A stretch of 39,995 nucleotides of DNA from Candidatus Kuenenia stuttgartensis (GTDB taxonomy: Bacteria > Planctomycetota > Planctomycetia > Pirellulales > UBA1268). The stretch lies in the NCBI GenBank assembly GCA_945870505.1, contig CAMBSN010000018.1, positions 1-39,995 on the forward strand, in the 5' to 3' direction. The notes below the pieces were generated by a model that was not told the origin of the DNA, made no database searches, and saw nothing but the letters and a program-made list of their open reading frames with translations. Position numbers and translations under genes: made by a program. Below, piece by piece: positions 4,720-35,483 of this stretch. The number at the start of each line of letters is the position of its first letter. Position 1 is the stretch's first letter.

Positions 4720-5547
4720 TCACCGCCGCGTCGTCGGCCCAGCGGAGCGGGAGGCGGTCGCCCCGGCGGCCGCACCCTCCAGGACAGCCAGCCGTTCGGC
4801 CGCATCGGTCGGCCCGCCGCCGCGAGCGATCGCGGTGCGATAGCTGTCGATCGCATCGGCGGGCCGGCCGAGCGCCTCCTGCGCCAGGCCCTCGAGCACG
4901 AGCACGTTGGCGGGAGTCTGGCTCGGACCGTAGGTCTCGCTCAAGACGGCCAGCGTGGCGAGGGCCCGCTGCGGTCGGTCGAGCCGCCGGTAGGCCTCCG
5001 CGGTGTCGATCAGCACGCTCCGGTCGGATGGATCGATCGCCAGGGCCCTGTGGAAGTCGGCGAGTGCCGGTTCGGGCTGACCGCGAGTGAGCGACACCTC
5101 GCCTCGCAGGTGCCAGGCATCTGCCGATCCCGGCGCCACGCGAACCGCCTCGCGGGCGAGTCGGTCCGCGTCGTCGAAGAGCCCCATCTCCAGATACATG
5201 CCCCCGCCCTGCACGCAGAGCTCGGCATCCTCCGGGGAGAGTCGCAGCGCCTCGTTGATCTGCGCCACGGCCTCCATCCGCTCGCCCCGCTTCCAGAGCA
5301 CCTCCGCGTAGTGGCGGCGGGCATCGATGTCGCCGGGGCAACTCTTCACGGCCCTCTCCAAGAGCCCCTCGGCTCGCACGAGGTCGCTGTGATCGGCTGC
5401 CGACAGACCCTCGTTGCACAGCCGCCTGGCCTCCGCCACGTCCGGCGCCACCGGCCCGCCCCGCTGGACGAGTCTGCACCCCGTCCCCGACGTCGCGACG
5501 AGCGTCGCGACGACCAAGACAACGGCTGCGGAGCGTGGTGGCACCAT
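4720..5547 (-). CDS. TPR-repeat lipoprotein-like protein
   Basis: Start at MVPPRSAAVVLVVATLVATSGTGCRLV (lipobox-like SGTGC); TPR repeats follow; the supplied ORF extends upstream in low-complexity Arg/Pro sequence. Confidence 0.7.
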   Translation of the reverse strand: MVPPRSAAVVLVVATLVATSGTGCRLVQRGGPVAPDVAEARRLCNEGLSAADHSDLVRAEGLLERAVKSCPGDIDARRHYAEVLWKRGERMEAVAQINEALRLSPEDAELCVQGGGMYLEMGLFDDADRLAREAVRVAPGSADAWHLRGEVSLTRGQPEPALADFHRALAIDPSDRSVLIDTAEAYRRLDRPQRALATLAVLSETYGPSQTPANVLVLEGLAQEALGRPADAIDSYRTAIARGGGPTDAAERLAVLEGAAAGATASRSAGPTTRR

Positions 5548-6501: not shown

Positions 6502-7659
6502 GTGTCGAAATCCCCCAGCCCGTCCGCCGCCGCGAAGAAGGGGGAGTTCCACGCCTATCCCTGGTGGAGCCCGCGGTTCTGGCACGGCATGCCTGCCGGC
6601 GTGTGGTTTGGCCTGCTCCGTGAGTACGGCTACCGGATCGACTTCATGAAGCTCGGTCTGGCGGCCACGGTGTCGATGATGACGGGCTTCAACTCGCTGA
6701 TGGGCCCGCTGTCGGATGCGCGATTCCGCCGCCGCCTCCGCGACCGGCCCACCACGCCGCCGCCGCTGTTCATCATCGGCCACTGGCGGAGCGGCACCAC
6801 GCTGCTGCACGAACTGGCGATGCTCGATGACCGCTTCTGCTGCCCCAACACCTATGAGTGCTTCGCCCCGAGTCACTTCCTTCTCACCGAGGACGTGATG
6901 ACGCAGGCCCTTCGCTGGATGATCCCGTCGAAGCGGCCGATGGACGACGTCGCTGCCGGCTGGGACCGCCCGCAGGAGGACGAGTTTGCCCTGATGAGCC
7001 TCGGCGCGCCCTCCTGCTACCGGCGGATCGCGTTTCCGGTGAGCAGCCCTGCGCGGCCGGAGGCGCTCGACCTCACAAAGCTCCCGCCGGCCGAACTCGA
7101 CCGCTGGAAGCAAACGCTCCGCCGATTCCTCGCGATGCTCGCGGTCCGCGACCCGCGGCGGCCGGTCCTCAAGAGCCCCCCGCACACCGCGAGAGTCGGC
7201 GTGCTCGCCGGCATGTTCCCCGAGTCGCGGTTTCTCAACGTCGTTCGCGACCCGTTCGTGGTGATCCCCTCGACGCTACGGCTCTGGAAGTCACTGCACG
7301 ATGTGCAGTCGCTGCAGGTCGAACGGGGCGCCACGCTCGAGGAATACGTCTTCGCCGCCTTCGCGGAGATGCACGACGCCTTCGAACGCGACCGGGCCAC
7401 GCTCCCTGCCGACCGTCTGCACGAGGTCCGCTACGAAGAACTCGTCGCTGATCCGGTGGGAACGCTGGCCACGTGCTACGAGCGGCTCGACCTGGGCGAC
7501 TTTGGCCGCGTCCGCCCCGCCCTCGAACGGCAGGCTGAGTCGATGCGCCGCTACCGCACCAACACCTACCGCCACGACCCGCGACTCGTCGCGGAGATCG
7601 CCTCCCGCTGCAAGCCGTTCCTCGACCGCTACGGCTACGCCGCCCCGGCCATCGGCTGA
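6502..7659 (+). CDS. Sulfotransferase family protein
   Basis: PLFIIGHWRSGTTLLHELAMLDDRFCCPNTYECF (5'-PSB loop) and SRFLNVVRDPFVVIPSTLRLW (3'-PB motif); likely GTG start at 6502. Confidence 0.85.
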   Translation: MSKSPSPSAAAKKGEFHAYPWWSPRFWHGMPAGVWFGLLREYGYRIDFMKLGLAATVSMMTGFNSLMGPLSDARFRRRLRDRPTTPPPLFIIGHWRSGTTLLHELAMLDDRFCCPNTYECFAPSHFLLTEDVMTQALRWMIPSKRPMDDVAAGWDRPQEDEFALMSLGAPSCYRRIAFPVSSPARPEALDLTKLPPAELDRWKQTLRRFLAMLAVRDPRRPVLKSPPHTARVGVLAGMFPESRFLNVVRDPFVVIPSTLRLWKSLHDVQSLQVERGATLEEYVFAAFAEMHDAFERDRATLPADRLHEVRYEELVADPVGTLATCYERLDLGDFGRVRPALERQAESMRRYRTNTYRHDPRLVAEIASRCKPFLDRYGYAAPAIG

Positions 7660-8369
7660 CGCTGACGCTGCTGCTGCAGCATCCGCACCTTGGGATCGGC
7701 CTGGGCACTCTTCGCCTCCTCGGCAAACTCCTCCGGCGTCATCCGGATCTGCTGCTCGAACCGACGGCGGGCCGCCAGCCAACGCACGACCGCGACAACC
7801 GCGGCGGCGACGAACAGCCAGGCTGCTGCTCGCCAGGCCGCGGCAGCCACCCGTGGCTCGTCGCCGATCGCCGACAGCCCTGCCGTCCCAAGCAGCGGCC
7901 GCATCGCCAGCACGGCGGCAGCCACCAACACGGCGAGCCCGGCACCGCCGCCCAGCGCGGCCGTCACCGTCCGCCAAGAAAAAATCCGCGACAGGCCGGC
8001 GAACGGATCGATGCGGCGCAGGCTTGGCGTGATCCGCGCCGGCTGCCACGAGAAGCCGTCGAGCACGAACCGCGTCGCCAGGCCGGCTGCGGCCGCGACC
8101 ACCACCACCGCCGTCGTGGGCAGGGCGACAGCGATCAGCCCGGGCCAGAGATCGATCGGCTGTCGTCCTCCAGCACCACGGATCGCGGTGCGGACGAGAT
8201 CGGCGGCGGCGGGCATCGTCGCCGTGGCCCAGACGGGCAGCAGGAGCGTGGCCGTGCCGGCGGTCGCCACCCACGCAGGCAGCGCCGCGGTCGGCATTGC
8301 CCCCTGGCGGCGGGCGGCCTCGCGCCGCCGCGGCGTGGCTGGGATCACACGATCGGAGTCGTCGGCCAT
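7635..8369 (-). CDS. flhB: FlhB/SctU-family export apparatus protein, C-terminally truncated
   Basis: N-terminus VIPATPRRREAARRQGAMPTA, FSWQPARITPSLRRIDPFAGLSRIFSWRTV and MTPEEFAEEAKSAQADPKVR match FlhB organisation; no NPTH before the stop. Confidence 0.8.
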   Translation of the reverse strand: MADDSDRVIPATPRRREAARRQGAMPTAALPAWVATAGTATLLLPVWATATMPAAADLVRTAIRGAGGRQPIDLWPGLIAVALPTTAVVVVAAAAGLATRFVLDGFSWQPARITPSLRRIDPFAGLSRIFSWRTVTAALGGGAGLAVLVAAAVLAMRPLLGTAGLSAIGDEPRVAAAAWRAAAWLFVAAAVVAVVRWLAARRRFEQQIRMTPEEFAEEAKSAQADPKVRMLQQQRQRQPMAGAA

Positions 8370-8397
8370 CGAGGTTTCGCGTTCTCGGTGAGGGGCG

Positions 8398-9204
8398 TCA
8401 GGGGCGGATGTCGTGAAAGCACCGCTCGAGCGGCGACTGCACGGCGGCAGCGAAGCCACCGATCCAGGAGTCGGCCCCGCCGCACACCGCAGCGAGGAGC
8501 ACGAGCGAGGCCACCGCCTGGAGCAGCCCTTGGCCGGGGTCGAAGCCGACCGACCGCACGGCAATCGCGGCGACGAGGTGGCAGGCGAGCACGGCGACGA
8601 GCGCCGGCAGCGCGAGCGACATCGCGAGTGACAGACCGATCGAAGGCATCGTGGCGACGAGTTCAAGCAGGTCGTCACGGGCGGTCGCGGCGGCGACCGC
8701 GCCGATCGGCAGGCTGCGGACGCCATCGACGAGTCCAGCGACGACCACCTCGTGGCCCCCGGCGGCGACGAACCCCGCCAGCCCAAGCCACCAGGCGAGC
8801 CGCCCGACGCCGGCCGATTCCGAACCCGGACCGTCGCCGAAGTCGTCGGCCCAGGAGAGCCCGGTGACGGTGCCGAGCAGTTGGCCCGCCCACGACGCCG
8901 ACGCAAACACGGCTGCGACGGCCAGTCCGATTCCGAGCCCCACCACTGCCTCCCCGAAGAGGAGCCCCAGGATCGATGAGCCATCGACCACCGGTGTCGG
9001 CGATGCGGCGAGGGCCGCCGGAGTGGCGGCCATGGCGAGGACCGCGGCGACCGCTCCCTGAACGCGAAGGCCGGTACCCGTGGCCAGCGGCATGGCACCA
9101 GCCCAGACCGCCACGGCCATCCGCACGAGCACGCCGGCCGCCACCACCGCATGGGCCGGGGTGAACGTGGCCAGCCACGGCAGCATGTGCGGGTCGATCG
9201 GCAT
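8398..9204 (-). CDS. fliR: FliR/SctT-family export apparatus membrane protein
   Basis: Hydrophobic 268-aa protein between FliQ and FlhB homologues; gene order FliP-FliQ-FliR-FlhB supports it. Confidence 0.75.
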   Translation of the reverse strand: MPIDPHMLPWLATFTPAHAVVAAGVLVRMAVAVWAGAMPLATGTGLRVQGAVAAVLAMAATPAALAASPTPVVDGSSILGLLFGEAVVGLGIGLAVAAVFASASWAGQLLGTVTGLSWADDFGDGPGSESAGVGRLAWWLGLAGFVAAGGHEVVVAGLVDGVRSLPIGAVAAATARDDLLELVATMPSIGLSLAMSLALPALVAVLACHLVAAIAVRSVGFDPGQGLLQAVASLVLLAAVCGGADSWIGGFAAAVQSPLERCFHDIRP

Positions 9205-9229
9205 GGATCGCTCCAGTCGCAGCGTGGCC

Positions 9230-9484
9230 TCAGGGGCCGGCGGCCGCCTCACGAAACAGTTCGGCCAGCCGCTCGACCATCCACGGCAACGACACGACGA
9301 GGGCCGCGGCCATCGCCAGGGCTTTGGGCGCAAACCCCACGATCGGCTCGTGAACGCCGCTGGCAGCCTGCACGAGCCCCATCGCCACGCCCACCGCGAG
9401 CCCCGCCACGAGCACCGGCAGGATCACCAAGCAGCCGGCGATCACAGCCTGCCTCACGAGTTCCACGAGTTGCGACTCCGTCAT
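9230..9484 (-). CDS. fliQ: FliQ/SctS-family export apparatus protein
   Basis: MTESQLVELVRQAVIAGCLVILPVLVAGLAVGVAMGLVQAASGVHEPIVGFAPKALAM is FliQ-like; 84 aa, two TM. Confidence 0.85.
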   Translation of the reverse strand: MTESQLVELVRQAVIAGCLVILPVLVAGLAVGVAMGLVQAASGVHEPIVGFAPKALAMAAALVVSLPWMVERLAELFREAAAGP

Positions 9485-9516
9485 GATGCAGTCGCCTCCT
9501 TGCTCACCAGGGAAGT

Positions 9517-10344
9517 TCACGAGGGCAGTCCGCGGACGCTGTCGAGCAGCGTCCGGACGACGAGCGACCAGCCGTCAGCCGCGACAAACACGAGTAGCTT
9601 CAGCGGGAGCGACACCAGCGACGGCGGCAGCATCACGAGCCCCGTCGCCGTCACGAGCGTGGCCACCAGGATGTCGAGCACGAGGAACGGCAGCAGCATC
9701 CGGAAGCCGATCGTGAAGGCGGTCTCGAGTTCGCTGACGAGAAACGCCGGGAGCAGCACCTCCACCGGCACGTCATCGTAGGTCGCGGCCTGCCGGGGGC
9801 CGCCCGGGTGCCGTTCGAGGAACAGGAGCATCGTGTCGCGGTTGCCGGCATGCTCGATCTGGGCCGCCATCCAGCGGCGCAGGGGGAGCGAGCCCTTCGT
9901 CAACGCCTCGCCCGCCGTGAGTTCGCCCTGGTGGTACGGCTCGACGCCATCCCGCCAGGCCTGCGTCCAGACCGGCCACATCACCATGGCCGAGAGGAAG
10001 ATCGCCAGCGACGCGACAATCTGGTTCGAGGGAATCTGCGCGGCGCCCAGCCCCTGCCGGACGAGCGCCAGCACCACCGACATCCGCACGAAGCAGGTCG
10101 TCATGAGCAGCACCGCGGGCGCGAGGCTGACGATGCCAAACATCATCAGCGACGGCAGTAGCGACTCCAGGGGCCGGTCGCCGAGTCGGCTGAGCCACCC
10201 GCCCACCGCGGCCGACGACGACGCGGCCACCGCCGCCTGCGGATGATCGATCGCCTGCAGCGGACCGGCGAGGTCGTCGGCTGACGACGCGCGGCCGGTC
10301 AGGAGCACGGCGGCCACCGCGAGGACCACCGTGGCACGGCGCAT
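9517..10344 (-). CDS. fliP: FliP/SctR-family export apparatus protein
   Basis: LMMFGIVSLAPAVLLMTTCFVRMSVVLALVRQGLGAAQIPSNQIVASLAIFLSAMVM and PFLVLDILVATLVTATGLVMLPPSLVSLPLKLLVFVAADGW are FliP signatures. Confidence 0.92.
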   Translation of the reverse strand: MRRATVVLAVAAVLLTGRASSADDLAGPLQAIDHPQAAVAASSSAAVGGWLSRLGDRPLESLLPSLMMFGIVSLAPAVLLMTTCFVRMSVVLALVRQGLGAAQIPSNQIVASLAIFLSAMVMWPVWTQAWRDGVEPYHQGELTAGEALTKGSLPLRRWMAAQIEHAGNRDTMLLFLERHPGGPRQAATYDDVPVEVLLPAFLVSELETAFTIGFRMLLPFLVLDILVATLVTATGLVMLPPSLVSLPLKLLVFVAADGWSLVVRTLLDSVRGLPS

Positions 10345-10358
10345 GGCGAAGAGGGGAA

Positions 10359-10910
10359 TCACGCGCGGATCTCCCGCCGGCTCGCACGCCGGTCGGCGGC
10401 GGGAGCCACGCGAACACCCCGGCAGGCGGTGACGATCGCGTCGGTGGCCTGCGGGTCGGCGAGTTCGGCGAGCGTCTGGCAACCGGAAGCCGAGACACCG
10501 AGCAGGAGCGTCCGGGGACCGAATCGCACGATCCGGACCGACTGCTGACCGCCGAGCGACGCCTCGCCCAGGACCTCAAAGACGTCGTGGGGCAGCGCGG
10601 CGACCCGCCGCGCCGCGAACAGCCGATACCCCGCGAGCGCGGCGAAGGCACCGCCGAGGGCAATGAGGACCCGCCAGTCGGGGAGCGGACGCGGCGGTGC
10701 GACTCGTGGACTCTCAGACGACGGCCCACCCAGTGGCAGCGGTGCGGCCGAAGACGCGGCGGCGGTCGTGAGCGTGGCGGGCTCGACGCCACCGTCGGCG
10801 ACAAGCGGCTCGGGTGATGGGGCCACCGGCGCGTCGGCAGACGCCTGCCCGGCGGCCAGGAGGGCCACGGTGAGGACGGCGACAACGCGGTGGAGATGGG
10901 GGGAACGCAT
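10359..10910 (-). CDS. fliO: FliO-like export apparatus accessory protein
   Basis: Signal peptide, single TM, then FEVLGEASLGGQQSVRIVRFGPRTLLLGVSASGCQTLAEL as in FliO; located directly upstream of fliP. Confidence 0.7.
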   Translation of the reverse strand: MRSPHLHRVVAVLTVALLAAGQASADAPVAPSPEPLVADGGVEPATLTTAAASSAAPLPLGGPSSESPRVAPPRPLPDWRVLIALGGAFAALAGYRLFAARRVAALPHDVFEVLGEASLGGQQSVRIVRFGPRTLLLGVSASGCQTLAELADPQATDAIVTACRGVRVAPAADRRASRREIRA

Positions 10911-10923
10911 GATTGGATCAGGC

Positions 10924-12492
10924 TCACGCAGCCATCCGCCGCGGTGGAACGGCGGCGGTGGTGTCGGCATCGGGGGCATCGTCGACCGTGGTCCAGTCGA
11001 TCCGCGACCGCGGCGAACGCTGGCCGGCATCGGCCGTACGGCGGCGCGACGACCGCCCATCGGCGGACCGAGCGCCGCTATGAAACAGGATGTAGGCGAG
11101 GATCGCGGAGCACTTGGCGGTGAACACCATCCAGACCTCGCGGGGCACGTCGCCAAATCGCCCCTCGGAAACCGCCTGGATCGTCACGTCGATGTAGTCG
11201 CCGATCGTGCTGGGCGCCGCCGCCGGAGTGGCGGTTGCCGTCTGGTTGCCGGTGGCGGCCGGCGGGGCAGACGACGACACGGAACCCGCGGCACCCGGCC
11301 GGGGTGGCGGCTCAGGCCGCGATGAAACGACGGGGAACCTCGTGATCACGACCCGGCGGCCATCGGCTCGCGAAATGGGGGGCAGAAGTTCGAGGATGTG
11401 CCCCCGGAGTCGCTCCTCCTCCCGGCGATCGACCTCGGCCACGGCCATCTGCATATCGCGTTGCCGTGCAGACCTGACGACGGCATCAAACCAGGTCTCC
11501 GGTACCGCAACCGACACCACGATCGAGTCGATGCGGCCCTCGCGGGATGGCGAGGGCACCGGGGCGACGGCAGCCGCCTCTGTGACTTCCACCTCGGCGG
11601 GCGCGTTGGCATCCGCCACCCGTTGCTGCCGCGGCGGCAGGTTCGGTTCCACTGGCGGCGCAGGGGCCGTGTCGTCGGCGAACGTGACGGTCACATCGAC
11701 CACCGCTCCCTTCACGAACGCCAACCCCTGACGGACCTTGGAGACGAGGTGATGCTCGTGGGCGATCTGCCGGGCGAGGGCGGGATCCGCGACAGGCGGC
11801 GGCTCGGCGGCATCGACGGGCGAGAGCGGGCCGGCGTGGACGTGGCCGCTGCGGAGATCGGTGACGGCAACCTGCTCCGGGTCGAGCCCGGCGATCGACG
11901 CCGCCACGAGGACGCGGATCGCCTGCACGCGGGAGGGCTCCAACTCGACGTCGAGCTGCGTCCGCACGTTGACGCTCGCGGTCTGCGTTGGCCCGCCGCC
12001 GAGCGTGCCATCGAATGCCGCGCGGTCATTGACGTCGTAGAGCACCGCCGCCCGTTCGATGCCCGGCATCGAGCAGATGACGTGGGCGAGTTCCTCCTGC
12101 ACGGCCACGCGGAGCAGTTCCTCCTGCGCCGCCCTGCTCTGCCACGGGCTGTTGCTCTCGAGCGCGCGGCGGAGGCTGCTGCCGAACTCCCGGGGGAGCG
12201 CTTCGGCGTCGACGAGTGCCCGCATGTAGGCGCTCTGCCGCGGGCGCGACACCCAGACGCGGCCGTCCTCGGTGCGGTGGCCGCTGAGTTGCGCGCGGTC
12301 GAAGGCCGCCTCGACGATGGCCAACTCCGACGACGGCAGCACCGTGCCGGGGAGCAATTCCACCTCTTCGCTGGCGGGGCGGTCTCGCAGCACCCACGCG
12401 CCCCAGCCGATCGAGGCGGCGACGAGCCCCAGCGCGATCACCTGCGCGGGCGTGACCCGTGAGGAGCGGCTTGGTTCGGCGGATGTGTCCAT
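10924..12492 (-). CDS. FliF/SctJ-like ring protein, divergent
   Basis: N-terminal TM, ring-building-like region (SSELAIVEAAFDRAQLSG...VQEELAHVICSMPGIERAAVLYDV), C-terminal TM; adjacent to fliO. Confidence 0.65.
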   Translation of the reverse strand: MDTSAEPSRSSRVTPAQVIALGLVAASIGWGAWVLRDRPASEEVELLPGTVLPSSELAIVEAAFDRAQLSGHRTEDGRVWVSRPRQSAYMRALVDAEALPREFGSSLRRALESNSPWQSRAAQEELLRVAVQEELAHVICSMPGIERAAVLYDVNDRAAFDGTLGGGPTQTASVNVRTQLDVELEPSRVQAIRVLVAASIAGLDPEQVAVTDLRSGHVHAGPLSPVDAAEPPPVADPALARQIAHEHHLVSKVRQGLAFVKGAVVDVTVTFADDTAPAPPVEPNLPPRQQRVADANAPAEVEVTEAAAVAPVPSPSREGRIDSIVVSVAVPETWFDAVVRSARQRDMQMAVAEVDRREEERLRGHILELLPPISRADGRRVVITRFPVVSSRPEPPPRPGAAGSVSSSAPPAATGNQTATATPAAAPSTIGDYIDVTIQAVSEGRFGDVPREVWMVFTAKCSAILAYILFHSGARSADGRSSRRRTADAGQRSPRSRIDWTTVDDAPDADTTAAVPPRRMAA

Positions 12493-12527
12493 GATGTCGG
12501 TTCTGGTCGTGGGGTGGGAGACGGCGG

Positions 12528-13031
12528 TCAGGCAGCCTGCCGGCGGGCGCCGCGCCGCGGAAACCGGACGGTCACCGCCGTGCCTCCGGTGGCACAGGGC
12601 GAGACCGTCAACTCCGCACCGCATCGGGCGGCGGCGTCGCGGACGTCCTGCGGAATCCGAGCCGTGCCCGGCTGATCGGGTCCTGAATCGGCGATCTCCA
12701 CCTCGACCGCGTCGGTGGTGGCGACCACGGCGACGTCAACTTCGCGAAGAGAGGGGCCGTCGGATGTGCCCGTGGGGCCGGCGGCGTTGGCGAAGGCTGC
12801 GGCAACGAGCGGCTCGAGCAGGTCGCGGACCACCGCCGGATCGGCGTCGATCTCGTGCCCTTCACCGCCATCGAGTCCGACGCGGACAGCGGCGTGGGCC
12901 GCCGATTGGCGGCCGACGAGCGCGTCGACGACGGTCCGAAGCGAGTTCGGACGCGCCGCAACCAGCGGCAGGATACGGGGCTCCACGTCGATCGAGGAGC
13001 GGTGGGCATCGCGGCCCGCATGGAGTGTCAT
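12528..13031 (-). CDS. GHKL/HATPase_c-like protein, divergent
   Basis: VRDLLEPLVAAAFANA, DAVEVEIADSGPDQPG, CGAELTVSPCATGGTAVTVRFPRR follow the N-box, G1 and G2 order of histidine-kinase-type ATPase domains. Confidence 0.5.
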   Translation of the reverse strand: MTLHAGRDAHRSSIDVEPRILPLVAARPNSLRTVVDALVGRQSAAHAAVRVGLDGGEGHEIDADPAVVRDLLEPLVAAAFANAAGPTGTSDGPSLREVDVAVVATTDAVEVEIADSGPDQPGTARIPQDVRDAAARCGAELTVSPCATGGTAVTVRFPRRGARRQAA

Positions 13032-13078
13032 GGGAATCCTTTCCCGGTGACGAGGTGATGGAATGACGATCGGCGAGA

Positions 13079-13759
13079 TTAGCCGGCAATGGCCGCCCGT
13101 GTGACGGATGCCGGACCACAGATCTCGTCCATGAGCCAGCGGTTGACGTCGGCGAGCGCGGTGGCGGCGAGGTCGCGTCGGCGGGGATAGATCCGCATCG
13201 CGAGCGTGGCACCGGCGGCGTGAAAGAGTCGCAGCATGCGGTCGGTCTGATTCGCCGCCCCCGCCGCGTCGGCCGCGGTGCAGCAGTAGAGCATCGGTAT
13301 CTGTCGCACGACATCGATCCGGGCAAACAGCGATTCGTCGAGCGGGAAGCCTCCGCCGAGCGAGACGACGCCCGCGAATGACTCGGGATGCTGGCAGGCG
13401 ATGCGAAAGGCCTCGGTGCCGGCGGCATCTTGGCCGACCAGCCAGATCCGGCGCGGATGGATGCTCAGGCGATCCGTCACGCGATCGACCGCCTGCCAGA
13501 CGGCGGTCGCGCCCCCGGCGGCCTCGACCGCGACGAAGTTTCTCAGGCTCACCCGGGCCATGCAGCGGCCGAGATCAACGGAAGATCCGAGCGGGTCGCT
13601 AAGCCAGACGAGCAGCGGATAGTCGTATCCGGCCTCGTAGCCCTGCGGAATGAACACGGGCAGGCCGCCGGTCCAGTCGGCGAGCGGATGCCTGCGGTCA
13701 TCCGCGGCCACCCTGGGGCTGCGGACGCGATCGGTCCCATTCGACTGCCGGCTGCTCAT
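13079..13759 (-). CDS. Alpha/beta-hydrolase (esterase/depolymerase-like) fold protein lacking canonical Ser nucleophile
   Basis: GLPVFIPQGYEAGYDYPLLVWLSD...IWLVGQDAAGTEAFRIACQHPESFAGVVSLGG; GQDAAG where GxSxG is expected. Confidence 0.6.
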   Translation of the reverse strand: MSSRQSNGTDRVRSPRVAADDRRHPLADWTGGLPVFIPQGYEAGYDYPLLVWLSDPLGSSVDLGRCMARVSLRNFVAVEAAGGATAVWQAVDRVTDRLSIHPRRIWLVGQDAAGTEAFRIACQHPESFAGVVSLGGGFPLDESLFARIDVVRQIPMLYCCTAADAAGAANQTDRMLRLFHAAGATLAMRIYPRRRDLAATALADVNRWLMDEICGPASVTRAAIAG

Positions 13760-14300: not shown

Positions 14301-17618
<3,318 letters not shown>

Positions 17619-17622
<4 letters not shown>

Positions 17623-17912
17623 GGCGCGGAGTGCTCCTGCGTCTCACCATCGGCAGCGGCCGCCTTCTGCCGCCGCATCTCTCGCCAGACGTAGGCGCCG
17701 AAGGAGCCCACGAGCGTGAAGGGCATCGCGAGCATGAGGAGGATGCTGTAGAAGTAGCCCCGCGCGACGTTGAGCCCTTCGGGATCGGACGTGTTCACCG
17801 CGTCCTTGCAGTTCGGGCAGCCAAGAGCTTCCGCACCGGCCACGACCGCCATGACCGCCGCGATCAGCAGCAGCGGAACGAACTGACGGAAGGCAGCATT
17901 CAGAGATCGCAT
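17619..17912 (-). CDS. Small membrane protein with CPNCK motif
   Basis: 97 aa, two TM, ALGCPNCKDAVN; 4-nt overlap with next gene; embedded in oxidase cluster. Confidence 0.65.
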
Positions 17913-17945
17913 GGTTCGTACCTCAACACCATTGTAGGCAGGCCG

Positions 17946-18404
17946 TCAGGGGCCGGGAAACCAGTGGTAGAGCATGAGGTAGATCACCACGCCGGTCACC
18001 GACACATAGAGCCAGATCGGCAGCGTGATCCGGCCCAGGCGGCGGTGCGACTCCCACCGCCCCTTCCAGGCCAGGAAGAACATCCGCAGGGCCAGCACCG
18101 GCACCGCCACGGCGAGGAGGATGTGCGAGATCAGGATCGCAAAGTAGACCGGGCGGACCATCCCCTCACCGCGAAATGGCACATGCCCGACCAGGTAGTG
18201 GTACGTGAGGTAGCAGGCCAGAAACACGGCCGAGGTGACGAAGGCCGCGGCCATCGCGGCCCGGTGGCCCCGGACGTTACCCCGTTTGATGTACCTCCAG
18301 CCGACCACGAGCAGCACCGTGGCCAGCGTGTTGAGCAAGGCGTTAATGGTGGCAAGCGGATGCACGCCTGCGACGGCGGTGGCGTCGGCGATGAGGGCGA
18401 TCAT
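17946..18404 (-). CDS. DUF420 family membrane protein, oxidase-associated
   Basis: VHPLATINALLNTLATVLLVVGWRYIKRGNVRGHRAAM...HRRLGRITLPIWLYVSVTGVVIYLMLY. Confidence 0.85.
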   Translation of the reverse strand: MIALIADATAVAGVHPLATINALLNTLATVLLVVGWRYIKRGNVRGHRAAMAAAFVTSAVFLACYLTYHYLVGHVPFRGEGMVRPVYFAILISHILLAVAVPVLALRMFFLAWKGRWESHRRLGRITLPIWLYVSVTGVVIYLMLYHWFPGP

Positions 18405-19165
18405 GGAACGATTCCCGCGTCGGACGCGGAGGTCTTCTCGGCCAGGACCTCGCGAATCAACCTCTTGAGCAGGTCCACGCGATCCTGCTGGAGCAGGTGA
18501 TAGCCGCCCCGCATCCGCCCCTGGCGATCGAAGACAACGCCACGCTCCGAATGCACGCCGAGTTCCACCGGTAGCCGAAACACCTTTTGGCCCACCTGCT
18601 CGATGAGCTTCAGGTCACCGGTGAGGAACTTCCACCGCTTTGGATCGGCATCGAACCTGGCCGCATACGACGCCAGCGTCTCGGGCGTGTCGTTGGCGGG
18701 GTCGCAGGTCAGGCTCACCACCAGGAAGTCTGGGTCGTCGATCTCGCGCAGGATTTCGGCGATCGCCTGGTTCTCCCGGAAGCACGGGCCTGGACAGTTG
18801 GCGAAGAAGATGGCCCCCATCCAGACGCGGCCCTTCAGCGACTCCGACGAGAACTCGGCTCCGGTCTGGTCGCGAAGCGTGAAGGGCACGTCGGCGAGGT
18901 TCGGGGCGTCGGCGGCTGTCTCGTCCACGGTGCCAGCCACCGGCGCGGGACGGGACGAATCGACCACGGGGGCCACGGAAGACTTCGAGCAGCCGACCAC
19001 GATGGTCAGCATCAGGCTGAGCAACGTGCTCCATGCCACCTTGGCCAACGCGGCCAACGCGCCAAAGCCGGCTGCGGGATGGCATGAGTTGGCTCGCGCG
19101 GGCAGGATAGCCCCAGGCTCGCCATCCTCACGCCAGTCCCTCCGCCTCCGCTGGTGGTTGCTCAT
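18401..19165 (-). CDS. SCO1/SenC family copper chaperone-like protein
   Basis: VPFTLRDQTGAEFSSESLKGRVWMGAIFFANCPGPCFRENQAI...FLVVSLTCDPANDTPETLASYA. Confidence 0.88.
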   Translation of the reverse strand: MSNHQRRRRDWREDGEPGAILPARANSCHPAAGFGALAALAKVAWSTLLSLMLTIVVGCSKSSVAPVVDSSRPAPVAGTVDETAADAPNLADVPFTLRDQTGAEFSSESLKGRVWMGAIFFANCPGPCFRENQAIAEILREIDDPDFLVVSLTCDPANDTPETLASYAARFDADPKRWKFLTGDLKLIEQVGQKVFRLPVELGVHSERGVVFDRQGRMRGGYHLLQQDRVDLLKRLIREVLAEKTSASDAGIVP

Positions 19166-19208
19166 GAAGGACTCGTTCGCTGTTCCAGGGCGGTGCGAAA
19201 CACGTGGT

Positions 19209-19700
19209 TCAGTGGGCCTGGACCGCAAACGGGCCCTCGGTCGAGGCCTTCTCGAGCACCTTCAGATCAGCGCCACGGGCCATGTGGAGGGCCCGCTCCT
19301 GCGACACCATGCGGTTTCGCATGCCCACGTCGGGAATCAGCATGATCGCGAGAAACAGCGCCATCATCGCGGCGGGGATGGTGAGCACGTACTTCCAGTT
19401 CGCTTCCCACCAAACGTGCATGAAGAACAGGATCACGAGCATCGCCTTCGTGCATGAGACGGCCATCATGAACGTCCAGCCGACCTGCGGCTGATCCCGC
19501 CACGGCCACGCGGGCGAGTAGGTGAAGAACGACATCGTCGTCAGGCCGCAGAGGGCCAAAAACACGAGCAGGTATTTGCCGAGCCCGCCATGCGCGTGGT
19601 GGTCGCCGTGCTCAGACTCGATCGAGTGCTGCAGCGTCTCGTCGGCCGATTCGCCGGAGCGGGTGACGGGGCCGTGGGAGTGGGTGCCGTGATCGGACAT
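19209..19700 (-). CDS. Cytochrome c oxidase subunit IV-like protein
   Basis: KYLLVFLALCGLTTMSFF...KAMLVILFFMHVWWEANWKYVLTIPA; His-rich N-terminus. Confidence 0.8.
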   Translation of the reverse strand: MSDHGTHSHGPVTRSGESADETLQHSIESEHGDHHAHGGLGKYLLVFLALCGLTTMSFFTYSPAWPWRDQPQVGWTFMMAVSCTKAMLVILFFMHVWWEANWKYVLTIPAAMMALFLAIMLIPDVGMRNRMVSQERALHMARGADLKVLEKASTEGPFAVQAH

Positions 19701-19710
19701 GGTTGGGCCT

Positions 19711-20751
19711 TCAGAACAGGTACATGAGCGGAAACAGGAAGATCCACACGAGATCGACGAAGTGCCAGTAAAGGCCGATGTTCTCGATCGCCCCGACCCG
19801 CTTTGCGTTGAGCGTCCAGGTGCACATGATCCCGAACACGAGCAGGCCGACAGCAACGTGGATCGCGTGGAAGCCGGTGAGCAGGAAGTAGGTGCTGGCC
19901 CACATGTTGCCGCCGGGGATCACCGTGGGGAGCCTCAGCCAACGGAAGGCGTCGTTGAGCCCATGGGCCCCGTGGCCGCCTCCGTGGTCGGCCCCTTCCG
20001 CCGGCAGCGGCATCACCTGATCCGCGACGACCGCCATGTCGAATGCCTGCTGGTCGGCGCTCATCACAATCTTCTGAATCTGCTGCAGGCGGGTGCGGGC
20101 CGTCTGCTGGTCGGCGGAGAGGCGGTCGGCGGGCGCCGCGTCGAGCCGCTGCAAGAGATCGACCGTGTCGCCCGACTTGGCCTCGGCGTCGGCCGGATCA
20201 CGGAGGGCGCTCGGCACCTGCCCCACGGGCGTCTTTCGTAGTTCATCGAGGCGCGCCCGGACAGCTGAGCCGTAGTAGAGGTCGGGCCGCTCGTAGATCC
20301 GGCTGTGCGGCATCGCGGGGTAGATGCCGTGGGAGAACTTCGCGGAGTACTCGTAGCCCTTCACGCCAAGGAAGAGCGTCCCGAGCAGGAGGGTGAGCAG
20401 CATCCAGATCTTCGCCAGGCTCGCCTTGTTGGCGCGGGCGGCCTCGAGTGCCAGCACCACGGTGACGCTGGAGCAGATCAGCACAAACGTGTTGAACGCG
20501 CCGATCGGCTCGGAGAGGTGCACGTGGTGCGGCTTCGGCCAGATCGGGGCACCGAAGCGGAGCACCACGTAACTGCCGAGCAGCGCCGCGAAGAACATGA
20601 TCTCCGTCGAGAGGAAGAGCCACATGATCAGCTTGCCGCGGGAGAGCGGCAGGCCGGGCTGATACTGGAGCGTGACGTGGCCGTGATGGCCGTCATCACC
20701 GGCATGGCCATCATCGTGACCCGGAGAGATCGAGGCGGCGTGAGCGTGCAT
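19711..20751 (-). CDS. coxC: Cytochrome c oxidase subunit III with large insertion
   Basis: [65 protein letters not shown]. Confidence 0.92.
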
Positions 20752-20775
20752 GTCGTTGCTTGGGATTCGAGAGGA

Positions 20776-21750
20776 TCAGACCGGCCTGCCAAACGCGACC
20801 GCCGCAGTGAGCAGGCCGAGCAGGGAGCCAAGGGACGTGAACAAGAGAACGCGGGCGGAGGCGTCGTCGCGGCGAACTGCGAACCGGATCGACGCCACTA
20901 CATAGACGATCGAGGCCACGGCTGCCGCGAGAAACAGGCGGATGCTGCCGGAGGGCACCGCGAGCACGAGGCTGGCGGGCACCATGGCGAGCGCCGCGGT
21001 GAGCGACTGGCCCGCCGCACGGAGGCCGGAGGGATCAACGACCGTAAGCATCTTCAGTCCCGCCGCGTCGTACTGGTGGCGATAGAGCCAGGCGATCGCC
21101 ATGAAGTGGGGAAACTGCCAGAGGTAGAGGACCGTCGCCAGGGCCGCCGCGGCCAGCCCGCCCCGGGCATCGCCAGCGGCGAGCCGCTCGGGCCCACCGG
21201 CGGCGAGCCAGCCAATGGCCACGGGAAGGGCCCCAGCCACGGCGCCAACGGCGGTGTTAAGCGGCGTCGTCAACTTGAGCGGCGTGTAGAGCAGCACATA
21301 GAGCAGCCAGGTGGCGACAGCGGCGGCGGTCGGCTGCCAGCCACTCGACGCCCACACGAAAGCCACACCCACGATGAGCGTCGCAGCCGTGAGCCACCAG
21401 GCGTCGCGGATCCCGAGCCGACCCGCCGCGAGCGGTCGGTTGGCAGTGCGCTGCATCAGGCGGTCGGTCTCGCGCTCGAGAATCTGATTGGCGATGCTGG
21501 AACTCGCCGCCACGAGCGCCGTGCCCACGAGCAGGAAGGCCACGGCGGCAGGATTCTCAGGTCGGCCTCCGGTCAGCCAGAGTGCGGTGACGACCGTCGC
21601 GAGCACCATCACGGCGATCCGTGGCCGGGTGAGCCGCGACAGTTCTGTGGCCCATGAGGCGGCGTGCGTCACCGGCGGCGCGGCATCGGCGACACGCCCA
21701 GCGAACGGCGGCGACACGGCAACAGCGTCAGTGAAGGTCGGCGACGTCAT
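20776..21750 (-). CDS. ctaB: Protoheme IX farnesyltransferase
   Basis: ELSRLTRPRIAVMVLATVVTAL...NQILERETDRLMQRTANRPLAAGRL; YLWQFPHFMAIAWLYRHQYDAAGLKML. Confidence 0.93.
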   Translation of the reverse strand: MTSPTFTDAVAVSPPFAGRVADAAPPVTHAASWATELSRLTRPRIAVMVLATVVTALWLTGGRPENPAAVAFLLVGTALVAASSSIANQILERETDRLMQRTANRPLAAGRLGIRDAWWLTAATLIVGVAFVWASSGWQPTAAAVATWLLYVLLYTPLKLTTPLNTAVGAVAGALPVAIGWLAAGGPERLAAGDARGGLAAAALATVLYLWQFPHFMAIAWLYRHQYDAAGLKMLTVVDPSGLRAAGQSLTAALAMVPASLVLAVPSGSIRLFLAAAVASIVYVVASIRFAVRRDDASARVLLFTSLGSLLGLLTAAVAFGRPV

Positions 21751-22712
21751 GCGAAGGCCCTTTCAGACGCGCGCCCCTCGCGGACGCCGGCGGCACGGCC
21801 GATCGCCCCGGCCTCGATCGCAAGCACGACCGACGCGCCGAGGATCAGCATGCCGAGGACGACGTGCCCGGTGACGACCAGCGCGTTGCCCACGCTGCGG
21901 GCCCGCAGCGGTTCGGCCAACTGCCACCCCTCCGGCAGGATGCTCGAAGGCACGCCCCAGTTGGCGACCCAGGCGCCGCAGCCGAGCAGAAACTGCACGA
22001 TCACAAAGGCGACGATTCCCTTCGACCACCGCCGCGCGGCGGTCGAGCCGTCCTCACCGAGGACGACCGCACTGACGACCGAAAGCACCGTGACGGCGAC
22101 GGCGCCGAGGATGTGCAGAGCGACGAGCCCACGGAAGGTCGCCGGATCGACCGTCGCGTCGAGGTGCCGCAACTGGGCGCCGGCCACAAGCTGCAGGTAG
22201 GCCGCGACGAGCAGCGCGACGGGCAGTCTGGTGGCACCTCCGGCGACGACCTCCGCCGACCGCCTCGAGAGCGTGGCGATGGCGACGGCGACGGCAAAGA
22301 ACAGCGGCCCGGTGCAGGCGTGGACCTTGGCGACGGTCTTGTCGTCGAGCAGCACCCGCGCGCCACCGAGCACCCCTTGGATCACGACGAGCGCGACCGC
22401 GGCCACGGCGAGCCAGCGAACAGCCGGCCGGACGCTCGACCGCCACGCCACGGCGGCGAGGCAGAGCGTCACCATGCCCGTCACTGCGCCGAGCAGCCGG
22501 TGCCCGTGCTCGAGAAACAGATCCCACGGGCCGTGAAACCACTCGTCCCAGGGAAACAGGAACATGTTGTGGCCGTAGGTCGCCGGCCAGTCAGGCACGG
22601 CCATCGCCGCTTCGTACGTGGTCACGAGCGCCCCGAACGACAGCAGCATCGCCGTCACACCCACCAGCAGGCAGGCGACGATGTGCGTCCAGTTGTAGGC
22701 GGAAATTCTCAT
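21747..22712 (-). CDS. ctaA: Heme A synthase, COX15/CtaA family
   Basis: GALVTTYEAAMAVPDWPATYGHNMFLFP; EHGHRLLGAVTGMVTL; VVIQGVLGGARVLLDDKTVAKVHACTGPLFFA. Confidence 0.92.
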   Translation of the reverse strand: MRISAYNWTHIVACLLVGVTAMLLSFGALVTTYEAAMAVPDWPATYGHNMFLFPWDEWFHGPWDLFLEHGHRLLGAVTGMVTLCLAAVAWRSSVRPAVRWLAVAAVALVVIQGVLGGARVLLDDKTVAKVHACTGPLFFAVAVAIATLSRRSAEVVAGGATRLPVALLVAAYLQLVAGAQLRHLDATVDPATFRGLVALHILGAVAVTVLSVVSAVVLGEDGSTAARRWSKGIVAFVIVQFLLGCGAWVANWGVPSSILPEGWQLAEPLRARSVGNALVVTGHVVLGMLILGASVVLAIEAGAIGRAAGVREGRASERAFA

Positions 22713-22894
22713 GATTGCGACCGACACGGACCCAAACTGAGGCAGGCGAAGGGACTGGCGGAAGTTCGACGAGCGTTGGAGATTTCGCTCGCCGCAGTTC
22801 TGCCCCTTCGGTCCGGGTAGTGCGAAATATCCCCGCGAGGAGAACTCCGCCATCCCGAAGCCGTCTTTGGCTCACTGACCGTTGCGGGCTCCTC

Positions 22895-24721
22895 TCAGTG
22901 TGCCGCCGCCGCCGCCGCGGCGGCAGCATTTGGCGGATCGGTCTGCATGAGGTGATCCTTCTCAACGCCCGGCACCGAGTACTCGTAGGGCCCGCGGTGC
23001 ACGATCGGCTGGTAGTCGAAGTTGCCGTGGCCCGGCGGGCTCGGCGCGGTCCACTCCAGCGTGTTGGCGTTCCACGGGTTTCTGCCGGCGAGCGGGCCCC
23101 AGAACATGCTGTAGATGAAGTTGGCCGCGAAGATCACCTGCGTGGCCACCATGCCGATGGCGCAGTAGGTCATGAAGGCGTTCATCGGCTGGAGGTGATG
23201 GAACGTCTCGTAGTGGTAGGCGTCGGCGAGCCGCCGCGGAAAGCCGACCGCCCCAAGGATGTGCATCGTGAAGAACGTGCCGTTCAAGAAGATGAACGTG
23301 AGGAAGAAGTGCACCTTCCCCCAGAACTCGTTCATGGTGCGGCCGAACATCTTCGGGAACCAGAAGTAGATCGCCGCCCAGACACCCATCGCCGTGCCAG
23401 CGAAGAGGACGTAGTGGAAGTGGGCCACGATGAAGTAGGTGTCGTGAATGAAGATGTCGACCGGCGTGGCGGCCATGAAGATGCCGGAGAGGCCGCCGAT
23501 GATGAACATCGACACGAACGAGAGGGCGAAGAGCATCGAGGTGGTGAACTGGATCTTGCCGCCCCACAGCGTGCCGAGCCAGTTGAAGGTCTTCACAGCG
23601 CTGGGCAGGGCGATCATCATCGTTGACACCATGAAAGTGATGCCGAGCGCCGGGTTCATGCCCGACATGAACATGTGGTGGCCCCAGACGATGAAGCCGA
23701 GGCCCGCGATGCCGGCGATCGAATAGACCATCGGCCGGTAGCCGAACAGCGGCTTGCGGGCGAAGACGGTAAGAATGTCGCTCACCATGCCCATCGCCGG
23801 GAGGATCATGATGTAGACGGCCGGATGGCTGTAGAACCAGAAGAGATGCTGCCAGAGGAGCGGTTGGCCGCCGCCGGCACCCGCGATCGCGTTGTTGACG
23901 ACGTTGCCTTCCGGCGAGAAGAAGCCCGTGCCGAGCATCCGGTCGGAGAGTTGCATGAACCCGGCGGCCGTGAGCACCGGCAGGGCGAAGGCCTGGAGGA
24001 TGGCGGTGATGAACATCGCCCAGATCGTCATCGGGAGGCGAAACATCGTCATGCCGGGTGCCCGCATGAGGATGATGGTCGTCATGTAGTTGACGCTTCC
24101 GAGCATGCTGGAGACGCCGACCATCGTGAGGCCGAGTAGCCACATCGTCTGCCCCATGCCGCTGGCCGGCGACGAGGCGGGGTTCGTCGAGAGCGTGGGG
24201 TAACTCGTCCAGCCGCCCGAAGCCGCACCTCCTTCGACGAAGAAGCTTGCTCCGAAGAAGAAAAAGGCGGGCCACATGAACCAGTACGACAGCATGTTGA
24301 GCGTCGGAAACGCCATGTCATCGGCGCCGATCATCAGCGGGATGAGGAAGTTGCCGAACGCACCCGCGAGGATCGGGATGATCACGAGGAAGATCATCAC
24401 CGAGGCATGCATGGTAAAGAGCATGGTGTAGAACTCGGGCGACATCTGGCCACCCTCCTGCGCGAAGAGCTTGCCGATCACCGGCACGTCGGACCACGGC
24501 CATGCCACCTGCCAACGGACGGCGAGGGCGAGCAGGCCGCCGATCAGAAACCAGAGCAGCGTCGAAAACAGGAACTGCAGCCCGATGACCTTGTGGTCCT
24601 TCGAGAACACATAGGTCGAGAGGAAGTGCGACAGCCCCGCCTTCGGCGCATGGCCGTGGGCGTGTCCAACGACGGTGCCGTGCTCGACGGCGGGCGTTGC
24701 GGTGACGGGGGGCGGGGTCAT
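22895..24721 (-). CDS. coxA: Cytochrome c oxidase subunit I, YS-containing (A2-type)
   Basis: LFWFYSHPAVYIMILPAMGMVSDI, GHHMFMSGMNP, DTYFIVAHFHYVLF. Confidence 0.96.
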   Translation of the reverse strand: MTPPPVTATPAVEHGTVVGHAHGHAPKAGLSHFLSTYVFSKDHKVIGLQFLFSTLLWFLIGGLLALAVRWQVAWPWSDVPVIGKLFAQEGGQMSPEFYTMLFTMHASVMIFLVIIPILAGAFGNFLIPLMIGADDMAFPTLNMLSYWFMWPAFFFFGASFFVEGGAASGGWTSYPTLSTNPASSPASGMGQTMWLLGLTMVGVSSMLGSVNYMTTIILMRAPGMTMFRLPMTIWAMFITAILQAFALPVLTAAGFMQLSDRMLGTGFFSPEGNVVNNAIAGAGGGQPLLWQHLFWFYSHPAVYIMILPAMGMVSDILTVFARKPLFGYRPMVYSIAGIAGLGFIVWGHHMFMSGMNPALGITFMVSTMMIALPSAVKTFNWLGTLWGGKIQFTTSMLFALSFVSMFIIGGLSGIFMAATPVDIFIHDTYFIVAHFHYVLFAGTAMGVWAAIYFWFPKMFGRTMNEFWGKVHFFLTFIFLNGTFFTMHILGAVGFPRRLADAYHYETFHHLQPMNAFMTYCAIGMVATQVIFAANFIYSMFWGPLAGRNPWNANTLEWTAPSPPGHGNFDYQPIVHRGPYEYSVPGVEKDHLMQTDPPNAAAAAAAAAH

Positions 24722-24764
24722 CAGGATTCCTCCGGAAACAAAAGGGATTCCACTCGGCGATTGG

Positions 24765-25565
24765 TCATTCGGCGGCGGCCACGTCGGCAGCCTCCGGCGG
24801 GGGCTGCGTGGCACCCTGCTCGGCATACTTCCGTTCGAGCCATGCATCGAAGGCGGCTCGCGGCTCGAACGTGACGCGGCCCTTCATCTTATAGTGGCCC
24901 CAGCCGCAGAGTTCGGCGCAGACGATGTCGAACTCGCCAGCCTCGCGGGCCTTGAACCAGACGGGGATCTTCATGCCCGGCACGGCGTCCTGCTTGATGC
25001 GGACGTTCGGCAGGAAAAATGAGTGGAGCACGTCCATGCTCTTGAGTTGAACCAGCACATCTTCGTCGATGGGGAGGTGCAGGTCGTTGACAAGAAACAG
25101 GTCGTCGGCTGTGCCGAGCGTGCCGTCGCGGCCCGGATACCGCAGCCGCCACTCGAACTGCCGTCCCACAACCTCCACCGTCGGAGACATCGCGGGCCGC
25201 CGCATCTTCACGTCGGCCCAGGCGTTCATCTGGTAGATGGCGAGAAACAGGAGCGTGGCCGCGGGAATGATCGTCCAGACCACTTCGAGCGTGTGGCTGC
25301 CCTGGATGTAGGTCGCCTCGCCCTTCTGCTTTGCCGCGTCGTACTTCCACATGAACCAGAACAGCAGCACTTCCGTGACCACGAACACAACGCCCGTCAA
25401 CGCGAGGATGAAGTAGAAGAGCGAGTCGATGCTCGCCCCATGCTCCGACACGTCTTTCGGCAGCCAGTAGTCGTAGGCGGGAGCGATGGCGAACGTCGCC
25501 ACACCCAGCACCGGGACGGCGAGAAAAAGCAGGGACCAGAAGATTCCGGCGAGTCGCTTGCCCAC
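24765..25565 (-). CDS. coxB: Cytochrome c oxidase subunit II (CuA domain, no fused heme c)
   Basis: LHSFFLPNVRIKQDAVPGM...FDIVCAELCGWGHYKMKG CuA motif; two N-terminal TM helices; no CXXCH. Confidence 0.95.
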   Translation of the reverse strand: MGKRLAGIFWSLLFLAVPVLGVATFAIAPAYDYWLPKDVSEHGASIDSLFYFILALTGVVFVVTEVLLFWFMWKYDAAKQKGEATYIQGSHTLEVVWTIIPAATLLFLAIYQMNAWADVKMRRPAMSPTVEVVGRQFEWRLRYPGRDGTLGTADDLFLVNDLHLPIDEDVLVQLKSMDVLHSFFLPNVRIKQDAVPGMKIPVWFKAREAGEFDIVCAELCGWGHYKMKGRVTFEPRAAFDAWLERKYAEQGATQPPPEAADVAAAE

Positions 25566-25604
25566 GTCGATGAACTCCCTCGTCGATTGACCGTTCGTGC
25601 CGCT

Positions 25605-26900: not shown

Positions 26901-26938
26901 GGGACTGGGGTTGCGTGTGGTGGACGGATGGTTGCTGA

Positions 26939-27823: not shown

Positions 27824-27849
27824 GGACACTGAAACTCGCGTTGTGAGGA

Positions 27850-28629: not shown

Positions 28630-28694
28630 CGAAGTGCTCCAGGAAAGTAGGGCGAGGTGCTGGCGGTGGGATCCGACGAAAGAAAGCTCTAGGG

Positions 28695-33266: not shown

Positions 33267-33352
33267 AGGAGTATTCGTCGTCGAGGCGACCGTGCAGCGT
33301 GTTGGGCGATGAGCACCGTGCTGGCTGGCGCGATTGGCGCCGCCAGCCATCT

Positions 33353-34678: not shown

Positions 34679-34688
34679 GTCTGTGTCG

Positions 34689-35462: not shown

Positions 35463-35483
35463 GGTCTGCTCGCGGTCCCTTCG

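Follow-up and report, generated by a model that had tools for sequence, protein, structure and literature searches.

The closest known system to the one described here is the 'Myxo' non-flagellar type III secretion system (NF-T3SS) of the Myxococcales, a flagellum-derived export apparatus that is conserved within its clade, has neither rod, hook, motor nor needle, and for which translocation across the inner membrane has been proposed (PMC3459982). Abby and Rocha (2012) regarded it not as a relic but as a translocation system that is conserved (PMC3459982). Flagellar export genes are also kept in the non-flagellated Lysobacter enzymogenes, where the flagellar type III secretion system (fT3SS) has acquired a new role; FliI is retained there and was reported to be required for export and pilin secretion (PMC7277350). 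Furthermore, the same inner-membrane core proteins are found in the nanotube CORE and in a hat-shaped, fT3SS-related complex (PMC9380563; PMC7064499), and evidence that connects this core with nanotubes, and also with the hat-shaped structure in the inner membrane, suggests that it may act outside flagella (PMC9380563). Here, we describe a gate-only system of the planctomycete order Pirellulales that belongs neither with flagella nor with canonical injectisomes. It is encoded by an eight-gene operon in a stretch of 39,995 nucleotides (contig CAMBSN010000018.1 of assembly GCA_945870505.1), which is called the window hereafter.

The planctomycete system shares with the Myxo system the derivation of an export apparatus from the flagellum. 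However, the Myxo system represents an early branch of the NF-T3SS tree, whereas the planctomycete gates arose separately inside the Planctomycetota, and they carry FliO and FliF but lack the ATPase, FliM/N and the C-terminal domain of FlhB (FlhB-C). The Myxo system is also devoid of a secretin (PMC3459982). In contrast to the situation in Lysobacter, the planctomycete system has lost FliI, and its FlhB is cut short. The nanotube CORE and the hat-shaped complex come from organisms that possess complete flagellar or type III secretion gene sets, whereas the planctomycete gate is described from genome sequences. A search, mainly of the open literature and with preprints and subscription journals mostly outside its reach, yielded no published description of planctomycete gate-only systems. 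We favor, with somewhat better than even confidence, the reading that the operon is an in-place remnant of a flagellar gene cluster, maintained by selection as an ATPase-less, probably proton-driven inner-membrane export gate with the anti-sigma factor FlgM as a candidate client.

The export-gate operon and its flagellar origin

Pfam profile searches identified eight genes on the minus strand between positions 7635 and 13759, in the order hydrolase-like, GHKL, FliF, FliO, FliP, FliQ, FliR and a C-terminally shortened FlhB; together with NCBIfam models, they corroborated the order, strand and tight packing proposed in the initial annotation. The gate is formed by FliP (9517–10362; Pfam FliP, 210 bits), which is the sole copy in the genome, FliQ (9230–9484; Bac_export_3, 63 bits), FliR (8398–9204; Bac_export_1, 77 bits) and the transmembrane (TM) part and linker helix of FlhB (7635–8369; Bac_export_2, 98.5 bits), which lacks the autocleaving C-terminal domain. 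Upstream lie the genes for FliO (10359–10910; Pfam FliO, 34.7 bits with a cut-off of 22; TIGR03500), a flagellum-specific gate assembly protein, and for the MS-ring protein FliF (10924–12492; YscJ_FliF, 56 bits), which is also supported by alignment and an AlphaFold model.

Since FlhA, FliP, FliQ and FliR also match the SctV, SctR, SctS and SctT models, respectively, the locus might be taken for an injectisome-like NF-T3SS with its remaining parts elsewhere in the genome. However, the flagellar NCBIfam models outscore their injectisome counterparts for every component, i.e., 213 vs. 149 bits for FliP, 54 vs. 34.5 for FliQ, 63 vs. 50 for FliR, 69 vs. 58 for FlhB, 35 vs. 25 for FliF and 624 vs. 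462 for FlhA. Moreover, FliO is present, the gene order around the gate is shared with flagellar clusters, and neither an SctN-type ATPase C-domain nor an SctQ/FliM-type SpoA domain was found in any of 25 genomes of the family. An injectisome identity was rejected on these grounds and is extremely improbable. No secretin- or needle-like gene (SctC, SctF) was recognized beside the gate, although no search was aimed at them.

FliG, FliM/N, FliI, rod proteins and flagellin had been noted as missing from the 40 kb, and this observation now extends to the whole genome (assembly of 3.35 Mb in 180 contigs, 87% complete), where no match was found for FliG_C, Flagellin_N (PF00669), Flg_bb_rod (PF00460), T3SS_ATPase_C or FliMN_C; absences here and below refer to Pfam profiles at an E-value of 0.001 on draft genomes. 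The genome contains one FliP, one FlhB and one FlhA, hence a single gate set, and a conventional flagellar regulon, of which the operon could have been one part, was not found elsewhere in it. FlhA does lie outside the window, as noted initially, but it is not missing: its single copy is unlinked to the operon (G000:C6:47442-49382) and is followed by genes for a sigma factor of the FliA/WhiG type (266 bits vs. a cut-off of 190) and for FlgM (33 bits vs. a cut-off of 25).

The family sample comprised the window's own genome, 21 others of its genus and one genome from each of three other genera, 14 of the 25 being at least 92% complete. FliP and FlhA were each found in 24 of them, and rod/hook proteins, T3SS_ATPase_C (FliI) and SpoA (FliM/N) in none (0/25 each); FliG was searched for in the own genome only. 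Flagellin was absent from all 20 family genomes of a further sample. In the other families of the order, 15 genomes were sampled, of which 12 have rod/hook proteins, 14 the ATPase and 14 SpoA. A gap in the metagenome-assembled genome (MAG) as the cause of the missing parts is ruled out by their absence from all 25 family genomes, including the 14 most complete ones. The loci were collected in a scan of GTDB genomes; the 64 named ones all belong to uncultured planctomycetes, the majority of them sampled in lakes and some in marine or brackish water, and several are labeled Pirellulales. They include MAGs of the ZH-3NOV15/RH-20APR16 scheme (Andrei et al., 2019; PMC6461901). In the accessible part of that paper, a freshwater family Vodnikaceae, next to Pirellula, is proposed, flagella are attributed only to Nemodlikiaceae and three other MAGs, and a retained gate goes unmentioned (PMC6461901). 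We infer that the window's family corresponds to Vodnikaceae. In practice, flagellar genes annotated in these lake bacteria cannot be taken as a sign of motility.

Flagellar clusters of other Pirellulales (G025, G035, G046 and others) occupy the same locus, with the genes for malate dehydrogenase (MDH), hydrolase and kinase followed by fliF and, further on, fliOPQR-flhB, and with a sulfotransferase gene next in several genomes. In G035, the order is MDH-hydrolase-TPR-FlgN-histidine kinase-response regulator-flgB-flgC-fliE-fliF-G-H-I-J, and it continues, after further genes, with fliK-flgD-flgE and, after others again, motA-motB-fliL-fliN-fliO-P-Q-R-flhB. G035 has this full rod/hook/motor cluster yet no Pfam flagellin match; the flagellin-positive G025 and G046 carry the same cluster, in G046 with the sulfotransferase gene after flhB. 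In comparison, the window operon is devoid of flgBC, fliE, fliGHIJ, fliK, flgDE, motAB, fliL and fliN, its FlhB is cut, and the kinase is reduced to the GHKL domain. The comparison shows the window operon to be the ancestral Pirellulales flagellar cluster, from which about 20 genes were lost in place. The MDH gene itself (14301–15251, minus strand; Pfam Ldh_1) is a conserved upstream flank and a marker of the ancestral locus, which it adjoins in G035, G042, G026 and the window's family.

The two genes at the head of the operon had been considered candidate system-specific components. This proposal did not hold, as the same MDH-hydrolase pair is located upstream of the kinase, the response regulator and flgB-flgC-fliE-fliF in the full-cluster relative. 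The first gene (13079–13759, minus strand) encodes a 226-residue alpha/beta-hydrolase-like protein, which has weak matches in Pfam and NCBIfam and which is encoded beside MDH in G035. According to the family alignment, it has no conserved nucleophile Ser, which is already so in the G035 relative; the gene is inherited from the ancestral flagellar cluster. The second gene (12528–13031, minus strand) encodes a degenerate GHKL (HATPase-like) protein with weak matches to HATPase_c, homologues of which match the G035 kinase (HisKA and HATPase). The H-box pattern is absent in the GHKL protein of all family members tested, and the protein is a remnant of an FlrB-type flagellar histidine kinase that lost its phospho-acceptor H-box. 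Hence, both genes are leftovers of the flagellar cluster, and a role as new parts of the system was ruled out by the G035 synteny and the H-box and Ser losses. As for their labels, both are supported by weak matches below the curated cut-offs, and GHKL is firm only via longer homologues and the histidine kinase of the flagellated relative.

Loss of the FlhB C-terminal domain in the family and across the order

The FlhB of the window matches positions 3-239 of the 335 positions of the Bac_export_2 profile. Alignment of FlhB showed that it stops just before VPKADVVVTNPTE, i.e., before the NPT[H/E] region, and that the retained part includes the four-TM region and the linker helix. The autocleavage domain with NPT[H/E] is missing from all 53 FlhB sequences of the family that were examined. 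The initial description of FlhB as truncated is borne out, as a six-frame reading downstream of the window's flhB revealed no C-terminal remainder in any frame. A frameshift or an assembly error was ruled out by this reading and by the recurrence of the same end, which is identical in all other loci of the family.

In the Salmonella structure, the linker helix of FlhB passes through the FlhA basket (PMC13308203). FlhB-C docks early rod and hook subunits via their gate-recognition motif (PMC8983047) and switches the specificity of export when hook growth ends (PMC7064499). Without rod and hook clients, FlhB-C has no known task, and the loss of these clients may well be linked to that of the domain, a link that fits the distribution described below.

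FlhB was assessed in 119 genomes of the order, and two classes were found: in 82 genomes, the match reaches at least position 332 of the profile, and in 33 genomes, it ends at positions 220-248 of 335; G081, where flhB is at a contig edge, was set aside, and G127, which has a full-length FlhB and a second, truncated one, was counted as full. With family labels being those of the genome search tool and f1 denoting the window's family, 19 of the 33 genomes with a cut FlhB belong to f1 and 14 to f2, f3, f6, f13, f15 and f17. Flagellin was found in 72 of the 82 genomes with full-length FlhB and in no genome whose sole FlhB is cut (0/33; Fisher P 3e-20, and 8e-11 outside the window's family, although the counts are not phylogenetically independent). 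For the latter reason, a gate tree was built on FliP, FliQ, FliR and the N-terminal part of FlhB. In this tree, the truncated gates cluster with the full-length members of their own families (supports 87/98 for f2, 86/88 for f3, 99/100 for f13, 97/99 for f15 and 99/99 for f17), and the f1 gates constitute a separate clade (100/100); support is only moderate at some nodes, and the branch of f6 is long. This grouping by family implies that FlhB lost its C-terminal domain six or more times independently, each time at the same boundary, and it disfavors a single horizontal spread of a truncated gate.

The gene sets found in the order can be arranged in four grades: a full flagellum (grade 1), a rodless set consisting of FliF-G-H-I-J-N-O-P-Q-R and full-length FlhB (grade 2; G042, G066, G043 and G076), the rodless set with a cut FlhB (grade 3; G106, G059, G073 and G036), and the gate only (grade 4; f1, G026 and G069). 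Ideas on how flagella gave rise to simpler secretion machines are usually drawn from a single ancient event, in which injectisomes originated. Here, such a conversion apparently took place several times in one order, and the present-day intermediate gene sets represent a natural deletion series. This series separates what is needed for persistence of the gate, i.e., FliF, FliOPQR, FlhA and the TM part and linker of FlhB, from what is needed only for an axial structure, i.e., the ATPase, the C-ring and FlhB-C. Two questions thereby become directly testable: whether a type III gate can work without an ATPase and a switch domain, and whether the gate has a role outside flagella at all.

Several loci have additional features. 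The rodless loci with full-length FlhB (L202, L203, L204 and L219 in G043, G076, G066 and G042, respectively) are all from genomes without a flagellin match and are of intermediate grade. G127, which has flagellin and a full-length FlhB, contains a second gate consisting of FliP, FliQ, FliR and truncated FlhB (L185; G127:C1:1228000-1247000), which groups with the gate-only system of G074. In L194 (G135), an open reading frame (ORF) of 2974 codons on the same strand is found 3' of the truncated flhB and may encode a large client or partner. In one subclade, FlhB is fused in frame to the neighboring TPR protein, resulting in proteins of 541-543 residues (L170, L172, L173, L176, L177 and L179); the fusion is also found in L199 and in L171, where the copy is cut by the contig end. 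The two parts are joined by a hydrophobic segment, which is predicted to place the TPR domain in the periplasm. Normally, the TPR protein is encoded a few genes away from flhB, as in the window (4720–5451, minus strand; Pfam TPR), where it is a conserved neighbor; the N-terminus of its homologues is lipoprotein-like.

Selection, proposed energy source and candidate client of the gate

The arrangement of the operon is kept in more than 60 loci. The order MDH-hydrolase-GHKL-FliF-FliO-FliP-FliQ-FliR-FlhB was found in every locus that was long enough and correctly gene-called, usually with the same flanks, and the eight-gene order is thus conserved in related genomes. Genes were called with a simple caller based on codon usage, which placed ORFs on the wrong strand in several GC-rich loci (e.g., L125, L128, L132 and L137), where the order was not scored. 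In close pairs with dS below about 1 (Nei-Gojobori method), dN/dS was 0.04-0.37 for the gate genes, the hydrolase and GHKL genes, 0.15-0.30 for flhA, 0.02-0.09 for fliA and 0.15-0.31 for flgM. These values show purifying selection on the gate genes. FliP and FliQ belong to the most strongly conserved proteins of the operon, and gene fusions maintain the reading frame (FliO-FliP, FliF-FliO, FliF-FliP and FlhB-TPR).

These data bear on the possibility that the operon is a functionless flagellar relic in slow decay. The stepwise loss of neighboring genes, the kinase without H-box and the hydrolase without nucleophile Ser would be in line with decay. However, purifying selection on every gate gene, intact ORFs and gene order throughout the family, in-frame fusions, an identity of 81% in the TM domain of FlhA and retention in 24 of 25 genomes make it a poor explanation, and we consider it very improbable. 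Thus, of the earlier characterization as a non-flagellar, repurposed or relict gate, the notion of a retained, repurposed gate stands, with no flagellum elsewhere in the genome, whilst that of a relict in decay is contradicted by the purifying selection and the family-wide conservation. The selection on the gate, together with the independent loss of the same FlhB domain in further families of Pirellulales, makes it probable that the gate serves a function of its own.

The proton path and the charge ring were mapped on Salmonella FlhA, in which Q254 is essential (PMC13308203). The equivalent residues in 17 family members were identified with the PDB sequence of 36hw (Salmonella numbering). Seven of the ten published positions are invariant, with R85, R94, R147, R154, D158, D199 and D249 kept in 17/17. 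N137 is a Q in the family, as it is in the flagellated relatives, and the other two positions, D208 and Q254, are substituted throughout the family (see below). Within the family, the identity of FlhA is 81% in the TM domain, as mentioned, and 59% in the cytoplasmic part. Judged from these residues, the gate looks functional but differently tuned. FliF has N- and C-terminal TM helices, RBM1, RBM2 and a split RBM3, and a recurrent IDW motif in its C-terminal tail. In the AlphaFold model (mean pLDDT 74; pTM 0.37, which is low), the two TM helices and the RBM domains are kept, and single domains match the Salmonella MS ring, with TM-scores of 0.8-0.9 on RBM2.

FliO, FliP, FliQ, FliR, FlhA and FlhB, the core tied to nanotubes (PMC7064499; PMC9380563; PMC7277350), are all present, and the system might be a CORE-like platform, serving as the base of membrane extensions or as a small-molecule conduit rather than as a protein exporter. 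For that purpose, the system might do without the ATPase and FlhB-C. Nevertheless, FliF is kept and conserved, and FlgM, FliA and the substrate-binding cytoplasmic part of FlhA are all retained. To our knowledge, the CORE set does not need FliF. As the nanotube role has, in addition, been demonstrated mainly in Bacillus, we regard such a platform as unlikely here.

The flgM gene beside flhA and fliA suggests a possible client for the favored protein-exporting gate. In flagellated bacteria, FlgM exits the cell through the flagellar export gate. The N-terminus of FlgM is conserved in the family (M[NQ]IxGVxS), and a variable stretch lies between it and the anti-sigma half. Because the N-terminus is conserved though the cell has no flagellum, FlgM is proposed as the leading candidate client, on circumstantial grounds. 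A sigma-28-like promoter of the TGAAGTTT-N12-GTCGATGA type is located 110-330 nt upstream of flgM in 10 of 12 loci, with a background of about 35 matches per 1.4 Mb, whereas no recurrent sigma-28 promoter was found upstream of the gate operon; only flgM has one. Downstream of this promoter, the flgM leader of roughly 215 nt contains a strongly conserved GC-rich block (ACCGGCCGCTGTCCGACGACTGG...GGAAGCGCGGCAA; L003:10606-10850 on contig C6 of the own genome; L098-L108), possibly a structured RNA; a riboswitch was considered, but no Rfam match was found.

In the proposed mechanism, FliPQR and the TM part of FlhB would be seated in a FliF ring above an FlhA nonamer, and this gate would export a limited number of unfolded proteins through the inner membrane to the periplasm, powered by the proton-motive force and without an ATPase. 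Export without FliI is possible, albeit less efficient (PMC7277350). FlhB-C would have become dispensable once the rod and hook subunits, its known clients, were lost. Export of FlgM would couple the activity of the gate to the release of sigma-28 (FliA), and further sigma-28-dependent exported proteins are likely. More tentatively, and as a possibility only, such a minimal, ATPase-free gate in a FliF ring, predicted to secrete FlgM and a few sigma-28-controlled clients, could constitute a novel type of cell-envelope device, a stand-alone, secretion-coupled transcription switch, with similarly reduced gates having evolved repeatedly from flagella in one order.

Several observations weigh against an exporting gate. 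D208E and Q254A/S substitutions are present in 17/17 FlhA proteins of the family (e.g., L003:7334-9448), whereas D208 and Q254 are kept in the flagellated relatives and in G026, G029 and G036. According to earlier descriptions, no type III secretion takes place without FlhB, which acts as the coupling element; secretion with a truncated FlhB is putative, and the exported clients are candidates. Genes for an ATPase, an export chaperone or an outer-membrane conduit were not detected in the vicinity of the gate, although no search was aimed at secretins. Finally, FlgM was not seen beside FliA in the gate-bearing genomes G029, G036, G073 and G074; hence, export of FlgM cannot explain in general why the gate was kept across the order.

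The conservation of FliA and FlgM beside FlhA and the loss of FlhA Q254 in the family would also suit a non-transporting regulatory scaffold, in which FlhA, FliF and FlhB serve as a sensor or anchor for FlgM-FliA or modulate, for example, type IV pili. In the non-flagellated Lysobacter, twitching is stopped by deletion of flhA, flhB, fliI or fliR, but not of fliP or fliQ (PMC7277350). In the planctomycete family, however, few components are as well conserved as FliP and FliQ, and FliF, FliO, FliP, FliQ and FliR are inherited as a block, as expected of a working channel. Therefore, a scaffold without transport appears quite unlikely.

Flanking genes

On the other side of flhB, a convergent sulfotransferase gene (6502–7659, plus strand; Pfam Sulfotransfer_3) overlaps the end of flhB with its tail by 25 nt. 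This flank is conserved and adjoins flhB in flagellated relatives, too (L205, L207 and L120). Farther away in the window, positions 17619-36548 are occupied by a long minus-strand block, which resembles a respiratory cluster with cytochrome oxidase and related complexes and looks ordinary.

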